Positions 10,994 through 17,700 of a DNA stretch of 22,699 bases are shown here, in pieces (position 1 is the stretch's first letter; the number at the start of each line of letters is the position of its first letter). Location of the stretch: positions 1 through 22,699 of IMG/VR virus record IMGVR_UViG_3300031539_000339. One strand, 5' to 3'. Under the pieces are notes generated by a model. The model saw only the letters and a list, made by a program, of their open reading frames with translations. It was not told the origin of the DNA and ran no database searches. This stretch comes from a virus. A program made the translations under genes and the position numbers.

Positions 10994-11008
10994 CCGCTAA
11001 ATAGAAAC

Positions 11009-11029
11009 TCGCCCTGTGGGGCGATTTTA
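11009..11029. terminator. Compact GC hairpin, possibly a bidirectional terminator
   Basis: TCGCCC (11009-11014) pairs with GGGCGA (11019-11024) around the loop TGTG. On the plus strand TTTTA follows; on the minus strand GTTTCTATTT follows. It lies upstream of the scaffold gene and could end leftward read-through from the giant gene before the capsid promoter. Confidence 0.4.
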
Positions 11030-11145
11030 GAGGGGTAAACAGATTTTTATGGGTTAGTTATCGCAAAAGTAATTTTAGGGCAGGCCTTACCCTGATTATG
11101 ATAGGGGGGAAATTAAGGTTTTATGCCAGGATACCCCAATTTTTA

Positions 11146-11154
11146 TGGTATAAT
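11146..11154 (+). promoter_or_regulatory. Extended -10 promoter for the tRNA
   Basis: TGGTATAAT is an exact extended -10 element (TGN followed by TATAAT). The expected start near 11161 leaves about 3 bases of leader before the tRNA. No good -35 is visible, as usual for extended -10 promoters. Confidence 0.6.
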
Positions 11155-11163
11155 GAAAGTGGT

Positions 11164-11239
11164 GGGGGCATAGCTTAATCGGGAAAGCATCCGACTATCA
11201 ATTGGAAAGTTGAGGGTTCAAATCCCTTTGCCTCCACCA
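11164..11239 (+). tRNA. tRNA with anticodon ATC (nominal Asp), CCA encoded
   Basis: A full cloverleaf folds by hand. The acceptor is GGGGGCA with TGCCTCC (one G-U). The D arm is GCTT/AAGC with loop AATCGGGA, having A14, G18 and G19 in place. The anticodon stem is TCCGA/TTGGA with loop CTATCAA, and a 5-base variable region follows. The T arm is GAGGG/CCCTT with loop TTCAAAT, the discriminator base is A, and CCA is encoded at 11237-11239. With U33 fixed, the anticodon is ATC, which reads GAU (Asp). Bacterial tRNA-Asp normally has GTC and discriminator G, so isotype is uncertain. It lies on the plus strand inside a minus-strand structural operon, and its own extended -10 promoter ends 9 bases upstream. 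Confidence 0.85.
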
Positions 11240-11242
11240 CAC

Positions 11243-11271
11243 TTGACAAAGTTTGGGGGGTGTTTTAACAT
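11243..11271 (+). promoter_or_regulatory. Promoter just downstream of the tRNA
   Basis: TTGACA (11243-11248) begins four bases after the tRNA CCA. After a 17-base spacer comes TAACAT (11266-11271; four of six consensus bases). The expected start near 11278 coincides with the anticodon-arm complement, which is why I read it as the promoter of a separate small RNA. Confidence 0.45.
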
Positions 11272-11277
11272 TAATAT

Positions 11278-11364
11278 TGATTGGTAGTCGGATGGGTAAA
11301 AGAACCCAAGACTTCGGAAATAGGTCTTGAGGCAGTAAGGAGAGCCTTAAGGCCTATTTCTTTT
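11278..11364 (+). ncRNA. Candidate small RNA with 5' end antisense to the tRNA anticodon arm
   Basis: The predicted transcript runs from the start expected for the promoter at 11243-11271 to a terminator. Its 5' stretch (11280-11294) pairs with the anticodon arm of the adjacent tRNA (11188-11202) in 15 contiguous pairs, one of them G-U. Three more G-U pairs extend this to 11277-11294. It continues with a small hairpin TGGGT/ACCCA (11293-11297 with 11304-11308), a short single-stranded linker, and the long terminator hairpin. This order (single-stranded target-binding end, hairpin, terminator) is that of a typical bacterial small RNA. I recognise no known RNA family and its expression is inferred from sequence only. 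Confidence 0.4.
11317..11364 (+). terminator. Intrinsic terminator-like 17-bp hairpin
   Basis: The arm at 11317-11333 (GAAATAGGTCTTGAGGC) pairs over its full 17 bases, two as G-U wobbles, with 11344-11360 (GCCTTAAGGCCTATTTC). The loop is 10 bases and a U-rich tail TTTCTTTT ends at 11364. This would stop rightward transcription from the tRNA or small-RNA promoters. On the minus strand no U-tract follows. Confidence 0.6.
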
Positions 11365-11390
11365 AGCCCGCACCCGCCCCTCGGAAGGTC

Positions 11391-11418
11391 TTGACAAAAA
11401 TCCGGATGGTGTTAAAGT
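11391..11418 (+). promoter_or_regulatory. Sigma70-type promoter for the two small membrane genes
   Basis: A consensus -35 TTGACA (11391-11396), a 16-base spacer and TAAAGT (11413-11418; four of six consensus bases) point rightward. The expected start is around 11425, at the A of the ATG of the 51-aa gene. Confidence 0.55.
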
Positions 11419-11424
11419 AAGAAT

Positions 11425-11580
11425 ATGAAAGCACTTCTAGGAGTTTCTTTGGGGATTGCAATCATTGTCTTTTTCGCAGAAACGGAGTGGTTGGGTAAAA
11501 GCACTTTAGCCCCAGTTATTATGGCTTTGGCAATCGCCATTGCCTTACAGGCTGTATATTCGCTATTTAAAAAGGATTGA
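11425..11580 (+). CDS. Small two-helix membrane protein (51 aa), possibly leaderless
   Basis: I read this directly from the sequence. ATG at 11425 to TGA at 11580 gives 51 residues: a short basic N-end (MK), a hydrophobic helix LLGVSLGIAIIVFFA (about 4-18), a polar turn ETEWLGKST, a second helix APVIMALAIAIALQAVYSL (about 29-47), and a basic FKKD tail. It fits a hairpin in the inner membrane with both ends inside. A promoter (TTGACA at 11391, TAAAGT at 11413) would start transcription at or next to the ATG, and I see no good ribosome site, so translation may be leaderless. Orientation opposes the flanking structural genes. No family recognised; small size keeps confidence moderate. Confidence 0.5.
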   Translation: MKALLGVSLGIAIIVFFAETEWLGKSTLAPVIMALAIAIALQAVYSLFKKD

Positions 11581-14700: not shown

Positions 14701-17700
14701 AGGTCTGAATGTTTCTCTCTGTCGTTGGCTTGAGAACTATCTTGCCCTTAACCTTAATTGGCCTAGCAGTTCTTACTGCTTCAAGAATTTTATTGAGTCC
14801 CGTATATGCAACACTGGATAATTGCCGAGCCCCACCTTTCTCAAGGAATATCTTTCTATATTGTGATTGCGGCAAGGACTTGACTTTAACAGTAGCCATA
14901 ATAGTCTGCCGCAGTTTCTTTTCCACAGGGACTATCTGGCTACTAACCTCCCCCAACTCTTTACGCAAACCAACCTTTGTAATACCCTCTGGTAGATTCT
15001 TGGCTGGTTCTGTCAATAACTCTTTAATCTCTAGCCGTCTATTCTCTAGCCTCGCTGCTTCAGTGAGTCTTGGTGCTACTTCCCCAACAGGTTTAGCAAC
15101 CCCTAGTGCCTCAAACTCCTCACTTGAAGTAATCCAATCCTCTACCCCGGCAATAGTTTCGGGTGTATAAGTCCCAGTTTCACCAATAGCGACACTAACA
15201 GTTTCAGCCTCAACCTTAGCCGTTACGCCTTTTATTAATGCCTCTATTTCCCCTTCACTTGGATATGCAGGGATTTCGGGCTTAGGTGCCTCAGCTTCCC
15301 ACCATACATTTTCCCAAAGAGTGTTTTTATCTATATTATATTTCTTGGCAACTTGTGCTACCCCTGCCTTGGCTCGTGCTATTTGATTCTTTGTCAATCC
15401 AACGCCTGGTCTTCCAGCTATCCATTCCTCTCCAATTTTAGTAAGACGAGCCTCAGCTTCATCTATAGCCTTTTGTAGATTTGATACAGGAGAAACTTCA
15501 GCAGGTTTTGCCTCAACTGGCTCATACCAAGCCTTCTCTACCTGGTTATATCTCCATCCTTTAGCAAATAGAGCTTCTGGTTGCTCGGTTACTGCTTCTG
15601 TAACTTTAACTAAAGCCCCAGCCTTAAACGCTTGCTCTGCCGCTAGTTTAGTAGTAGGTTTAGCAACTTCAGGCTTGGCAAGTGGGGGGAGAGCCCCTTC
15701 AGGTATTGTTTCGCTTGGTCTAATTAACCTAGCTTGGTCTTTTAATATGGCACTTACTTGCCCCTTCTCATGCCCTGTTAAAACCTCAACCTTATAGGCT
15801 GGTATTGGATTCTGTTTTGTTCCTAAAGTTCCTTCCCCTATAACTCTTCCCTGAATTAAACCATCACTGACAATATCCCCTACTTCTATAGCCCTTGTTA
15901 CTGGCCCCCCAACTTCAGCAACAGGTTTAGCCACAGCAGGAGCAACCCTACCTGCTATAATACCTGTTATTCCCTTAACGAAATCAGCAGGCGTGTTCTT
16001 AGCAATCAGGGCGGTTAGAGATACAGAAGTTAATTCCTTGCCAGCCTGAGTAGCCAGTATGATATTACCCATAGTTTGGGTTGATGCCCTTATGCCGGCA
16101 TCCAGTAATAAAGCTTGTTCTTGAGTTGTGGCTTTTCCAGCCACTTTACCCGCCGCCCTAGCAACCTCACTGGCACCACGAGCCTTTATAATATTATCGG
16201 ACATTTGCGTTAACCAACGCCCATGATATTCAAGAACCTTCTGTAATAACTTTTCAACAGGAGTTTGAGCAGGTCGCCTAGCTACTCCTGATAAATAAAC
16301 AGCGTGTTTATTTACATACGAAGTAAGGGCTTTATTTGTTAAAGCGCTAACTCCCTTAATGGGTAGGCTTATAACCTTTCCTGCTGCCCACTCATATCCC
16401 GATACAGGAGCCAATGCCCCCCGAGCCACAGTTGCAGCAGCACCCTTTACGCCACCTTTAGCAGCAACAGGAGCCAATTGCCCCCTAAGAACAGTAGCGG
16501 AGGGAACAATCAAGGCAAATAATATCCATGCAGGAGCTTCATACTCTAAGCGCTTATACCATGGCAAAGCCATAAATTCAGCATGTTTTTCCCCGCCCGG
16601 TAGATATGCCTTAATTTTATCTTTCACCGGTGCATCATCCCAATGTGTTTGAACAAACTCAGCTAATCGGTCTTTATCCTTCTCATTCAGTTCCTCCCCT
16701 AGTCTTATCTTCCGCTCTATCACACCACCACCAATTTCTCTATCTAGTTCTTGCCATTGCCAGTTCATCATCGCTGGCAAAGTGATTGCAGGATAAAGCG
16801 CATAGTCAATTACCGTTGATATTGCCTTATTCAGTGCTTGCGTTATTTTAGGGTCACGATATTTAGCCGTAAGTTCAGCCCGCCATTCTTCCCTGGAGGG
16901 AATAGATATGGGTCTACCTGTAGGCTTAACTACACCCATTGGTGCAGGTCGTATTGGAGCTTCTTTATATCCAGGGGGGACTGTGGGCACCCGGGGTTTG
17001 AGAAGCTCATAGGCTGCCGTAAGATTCTCAAGGGCTTTCTTTATAGTAGCTTTCTCAGCTAGGCGTAATCCCCGAGTATCAACCCTCTGTATCGTTCTTG
17101 CTGTCTTCCAGAAATACTCACGATTCCCCTTTAGTAAATCTATGGCATATTGCGGATTCTCGGCTATGTATTTATAACTGCTTACCCATCCCCCTGCTGC
17201 TATGTAGGGTTCAAATAAATCATTTGTCGGAGCCACACAGGTAGGTGATTTCTCAACATGGGTTTGCCAATAATCTCTTAGCGATGCAACCTCGCCAGCT
17301 ATGTTCCCGGGTGTTCTTTTCTGTAAAATAGAATTCTTTAATTTCTCAAGTTCATAATCAAGCAAGCCCTTTGGTCTCAATATTGATTCCCACTTGTCCT
17401 GTGGTGTTTTTTCTAATGTCTGAATATAATCTCTTAATGGTTCATATTCACTAGAGATTCCCCCCAAATCATTACATCTTTGTTCTCTCTCCCTTTCAAT
17501 CTCATGCCTAATTTTATCAGGGAGACCATACCTAGTTTTATCCCATTCAATAGTTGGTTGGCTGGCCCAATGATCAATATAATCAGCCTCTTCTTCGCCA
17601 AATTTCTCTTTTAATTTCTCTAGTCTCTCTGATTTCTTAGTATCCAGTTGGATCCCCTCATAATCCCCTGGTTTTTCCCACCAATACTTCCCCCTAACTG

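Follow-up and report, generated by a model that had tools for sequence, protein, structure and literature searches.

A phage cassette combining an unusual tRNA gene with a predicted small RNA complementary to the tRNA anticodon arm

Organisation of the locus

The locus was found in an uncultivated phage (IMG/VR virus record IMGVR_UViG_3300031539_000339), from which a stretch of 22.7 kb (22,699 nt), hereafter the window, was analysed. Terminase, portal and capsid protein (PHROG 267) are all encoded on the minus strand. A cassette lies on the strand opposite to the flanking structural genes, with the scaffold gene on one side and a gene for a large polyvalent protein on the other, and it would make three products: a tRNA from a promoter P0, a small hairpin RNA from a promoter P1, and a small membrane protein from a promoter P2. 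A block of 430 bp at this site (10999-11428, plus strand) is common to a second phage, IMGVR_UViG_3300031539_000078 (45 kb; loci L012 and L023), and a third phage, IMGVR_UViG_3300009149_006176 (loci L024 and L028), has a related arrangement in the same slot.

The tRNA gene (11164-11239, plus strand) is well-formed, being called by both ARAGORN and Rfam (68 bits), and its CCA end is encoded. The closest annotated phage tRNAs (80% identity) are tRNA-Ala, followed lower down by tRNA-Ile, tRNA-Met and tRNA-Lys. Read from the sequence, the acceptor contains G3:U70 and A73, which we take to be established alanine identity elements, while the anticodon is AUC. The corresponding codon, GAU, occurs 38 times per 1000 codons in the main window genes and is the commonest among the 16 codons tabulated. 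The tRNA thus looks odd for ordinary decoding, as it seems to join an A34 anticodon for Asp GAU codons to an alanine-type acceptor with G3:U70. Its putative promoter, P0, is an extended -10 element (TGnTATAAT, 11146-11154, plus strand), of which TG and TATAAT are retained in the second phage amid mismatches.

Downstream of the tRNA, P1 (TTGACA-17-TAACAT, 11243-11271, plus strand) and P2 (TTGACA-16-TAAAGT, 11391-11418, plus strand) are the sole strict TTGACA promoters across the window, and the second phage has the same P1 sequence. The P1 RNA is predicted to start at 11278-11280, and the small RNA (sRNA) would be about 87 nt long (11279-11364, plus strand), with the same sequence in the second phage through 11348. 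It folds far better than shuffled sequences (z = -5.9), and ends in a terminator-like hairpin (11316-11361, plus strand) of 18 bp with a 10-nt loop, AGUAAGGAGA, followed by a U-rich tail. An initial annotation of this DNA had placed a promoter at 11243-11271 with RNA starting at about 11278, at the edge of a complement to the tRNA, and the sequence bears this out; the terminator hairpin that it described is likewise present, although the fold gives 18 bp rather than the 17 bp claimed. The sRNA belongs to no family found in an Rfam search, and the T-box leader covariance model gave no match at E up to 5. The hairpin loop (11334-11343) contains a Shine-Dalgarno-like AAGGAG. P2 is followed by an open reading frame (ORF) of 51 amino acids (11425-11580, plus strand), without Pfam or PHROG match, which by eye appears to encode a membrane protein and would be leaderless, beginning at or near the predicted P2 start.

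Complementarity between the sRNA and the anticodon arm

Positions 11280-11294 (ATTGGTAGTCGGATG, plus strand) pair with positions 11188-11202 of the tRNA anticodon arm (CATCCGACTATCAAT, plus strand) in 15 contiguous pairs, comprising 14 Watson-Crick pairs and one G-U, and the pairing reaches 18 if three more G-U pairs are counted; recomputation gave the same figures as the initial annotation. With the P1 start at about 11279, the complement makes up the first ~15 bases of the predicted RNA. A 12-codon ORF (MGKRTQDFGNRS, 11292-11330), starting with the ATG at 11292, begins inside the complement.

The contiguous complementarity between sRNA and tRNA exceeds chance. When the 127 bases downstream were dinucleotide-shuffled and compared with the whole tRNA, at least 14 Watson-Crick pairs arose in 2 of 3000 shuffles (~1 in 1,500), and 31 comparator tRNAs from the loci compared showed at most nine pairs each. 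The initial annotation had called the match very unlikely by chance; once free choice of place anywhere in 22.7 kb is allowed for, it is by itself only moderately surprising, at the percent level by a rough estimate. Two things strengthen it: its placement where the RNA is predicted to begin, and its exact conservation in the second phage.

Co-folding of tRNA and sRNA, a check suggested with the initial annotation, predicted that the cloverleaf opens and a 15-bp duplex forms with a net energy of -8.0 kcal/mol, in models that omit tRNA tertiary structure and modifications. This is the best value among 56 tRNAs, yet barely ahead of the next, an unrelated tRNA at -7.4 kcal/mol, and the predicted strength of pairing in trans is modest. 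Counting in favour of the pairing, 2 of 300 shuffled leaders equalled this value. As to covariation, the only other copy of the tRNA/sRNA pair is identical in both partners.

Distribution of the cassette

By blastn and alignment, the 430-bp block is 88% identical between the two phages, with mismatches distributed very unevenly: 41 in positions 10999-11159 (161 nt), none in positions 11160-11348 (189 nt, from tRNA to hairpin), and nine thereafter. Only one change, A11349G, lies within the hairpin, and it keeps the pair. The 189-nt identity could reflect recent recombination rather than constraint. In the second phage, the block occupies the same position as in the window, flanked by a large polyvalent-type gene on one side and the genes for scaffold and capsid on the other, but the capsid belongs to PHROG 212 rather than PHROG 267, and outside the cassette the DNA matches are confined to short patches, most of them within the polyvalent gene. 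Because of the different capsid family and the largely unrelated neighbouring genes, the block appears to be shared more widely than its surroundings. The second phage also encodes a tyrosine recombinase (Pfam Phage_integrase) and is therefore probably temperate.

Judged from its sequence and distribution, the block is a shared accessory RNA cassette of moron-like character. As in phage morons, it lies between structural genes with its own predicted promoters (P0, P1 and P2) and terminator-like hairpin, and it is common to phages whose genes, including those of the capsid, otherwise differ. The capsid of the third phage is 59-62% identical to that of the second (L023), and its slot holds promoters resembling P1 and P2, the latter immediately followed by a small membrane-type ORF. 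No tRNA was found in this slot, and two tandem hairpins replace the sRNA. These hairpins (L024:4790-4965, minus strand) are each ~70 nt, share CATGCATGC and ACCAG motifs, lie 3' of the P1-like promoter and directly before P2, and fall into no family in an Rfam search. The shared cassette also marks a slot in these phages for the exchange of promoted non-coding RNAs. Promoter uniqueness, conservation and the syntenic arrangement of two further phages lend good support to a small RNA beside the tRNA that has a promoter of its own. In the polyvalent gene (window positions 15075-15946), short DNA patches with 72-93% identity are common to the window, L023 and L024, although the remainder differs.

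Searches of viral contigs with exact patterns, which diverged copies could escape (the antisense 15-mer, a tRNA 25-mer and a hairpin 18-mer), returned one relative only, and a 24-base sRNA pattern had no match in genome contigs. The window capsid, scaffold and terminase, used as queries, yielded no useful relative. Matches on Klebsiella plasmids were rejected as tRNA-Arg without the complement; these small plasmids carry a tRNA-Arg(TCT) gene for which no annotation is listed (L020:1076-1151 and L021:2048-2123), the PLSDB table giving no RNA genes.

A distant relative (33%) of the L023 and L024 capsid occurs in a Chloroflexi metagenome-assembled genome, which points indirectly to a Chloroflexota host for this phage group. 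Searching 393 Dehalococcoidia and 400 Chloroflexota genomes for the cassette DNA gave short or tRNA-only matches. None of the 393 Dehalococcoidia genomes, a host group that is itself inferred, had a tRNA in which this arm and this anticodon occur together; the only host tRNA sharing the arm is tRNA-Lys(CTT), in which the anticodon differs. The proposal that the sRNA targets a host tRNA thus finds no support in these 393 genomes.

Possible roles of the sRNA

The best single reading, a tentative one, is that the sRNA works as an antisense RNA, covering the anticodon of the odd tRNA and thereby limiting or sequestering it. The sRNA would begin with a largely single-stranded tail, which would contact the anticodon loop and then invade the anticodon stem until 15 pairs have formed, and the resulting duplex would block decoding or charging of the tRNA. 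The sequences themselves show the match, the promoter and hairpin elements, and the sharing between two different phages; transcription, annealing in trans and an effect on the tRNA are inferred. Speaking for this reading are the 15 pairs where the RNA is predicted to begin, with their shuffle and comparator figures, the P1/P2-like promoter pair in the same slot of two other phages, the mismatch-free 189 nt, the different capsid family and neighbouring genes, and the co-folding result. Speaking against it are the small margin over an unrelated tRNA in net binding, the identity of the only other copy, which may stem from recent recombination, and the third phage, whose P1 slot is kept although the tRNA is absent. 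One of the models in the initial annotation was an RNA that regulates or sequesters the neighbouring tRNA, and it is supported in part: the promoted sRNA beside the tRNA is well backed, while its action by pairing is putative, the single further copy being identical and predicted binding modest. Given the odd make-up of the tRNA, one might speculate that it is restrained because it could insert alanine at Asp codons. A bolder version, which we consider improbable, is an RNA-only pair in which a mistranslating tRNA with alanine acceptor and Asp-codon anticodon is checked by an anticodon-hiding antisense RNA, carried as a shared cassette of temperate phages.

Antisense control ranks first among the explanations. 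In its main rival, a close second and itself quite possible, the P1 transcript would be a structured accessory RNA serving some other target or a protein partner, and the arm match would be coincidental or have arisen through sequence duplication. The third phage bears a P1-like promoter and a tandem pair of strong hairpins in this slot and lacks the tRNA, which indicates that the slot can do without a tRNA and a P1 RNA without this pairing. In addition, nine of the 15 bases (CATCCGACT) match a sequence common in tRNA anticodon arms, for example that of a Dehalococcoidia tRNA-Lys. An incidental match is, however, at odds with the shuffle and comparator statistics, and with the exact placement of the complement at the predicted RNA 5' end.

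The remaining explanations are less likely. Pairing could act in cis if a readthrough transcript from P0 folded the anticodon arm onto the complement, in competition with tRNA folding and maturation. No terminator was seen between the tRNA and P1, and the lowest-energy fold of 11160-11364 does pair the arm with the complement, at -75.8 kcal/mol compared with -65.6 kcal/mol for the cloverleaf and an independent downstream fold, a gain of ~10 kcal/mol. Yet the tRNA, being transcribed first, can fold while another ~40-50 nt are copied before the complement emerges, a dedicated promoter bordering the complement would be unneeded, and the terminator hairpin is present in either state, leaving no switch; an effect in cis is therefore regarded as unlikely. 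Regulation in the reverse direction, with the tRNA or an anticodon half serving as antisense or sponge over the sRNA 5' end and the start of the 12-codon ORF, would fit the extent of the complement, which spans the predicted RNA start through the ATG at 11292, but no Shine-Dalgarno site is visible by eye before this ATG and the peptide is not hydrophobic, making such regulation rather improbable. Finally, a remnant of a tRNA-type attachment site, raised in the initial annotation, or another DNA-level inverted repeat is most improbable. The tyrosine recombinase of the related phage speaks for it, but the gene for this enzyme lies ~17 kb away in that relative, the tRNA gene is intact, the two segments form an inverted and not a direct repeat, and the 393 Dehalococcoidia genomes offered no tRNA with both this arm and this anticodon.

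Comparison with known RNA systems

Antisense sRNAs, both trans-encoded ones and type I antitoxins, have a short 5' toehold, a terminator hairpin and a target encoded nearby. The window sRNA has the same layout, but its proposed partner is a tRNA instead of an mRNA. Sponges derived from tRNA 3' trailers, such as 3'ETS-leuZ, are RNAs that adjoin a tRNA gene and pair with another RNA, whereas the window sRNA is preceded by a promoter of its own and its pairing partner would be the tRNA. Among phages, T4 encodes rnaC and rnaD, which according to annotation are likewise small stable RNAs beside tRNA genes, but these lie inside the tRNA cluster; for the T4 tRNAs tested, the 127 nt that follow contained no complement of similar extent.

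The CreT toxin RNA of CreTA modules sequesters a tRNA via rare codons in a translated mini-ORF (PMC8501985). Both CreT and, as proposed, the window sRNA are small RNAs that take a specific tRNA out of use, but CreT does so through the rare codons of its mini-ORF, whereas the match of the window sRNA is directly antisense to the anticodon arm. A CreT-type RNA was considered and rejected, the ORF at ATG 11292 having neither a Shine-Dalgarno site nor a repeated rare codon, and no CRISPR guide was seen. A limited search of the literature gave no precedent for a phage RNA antisense to a tRNA. If the pairing is real, this would be a phage small RNA targeting a tRNA anticodon arm, and the phage tRNA would gain a direct off-switch.

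A further feature of the cassette concerns P2, as the same kind of promoter stands just before a start codon in all three phages. In each, a TTGACA promoter has its predicted start at or adjoining the ATG of a small membrane-type protein (window 11391-11425, L012:973-1010 and L024:4770-4800), and the proteins behind this leaderless type of start differ among the three phages.
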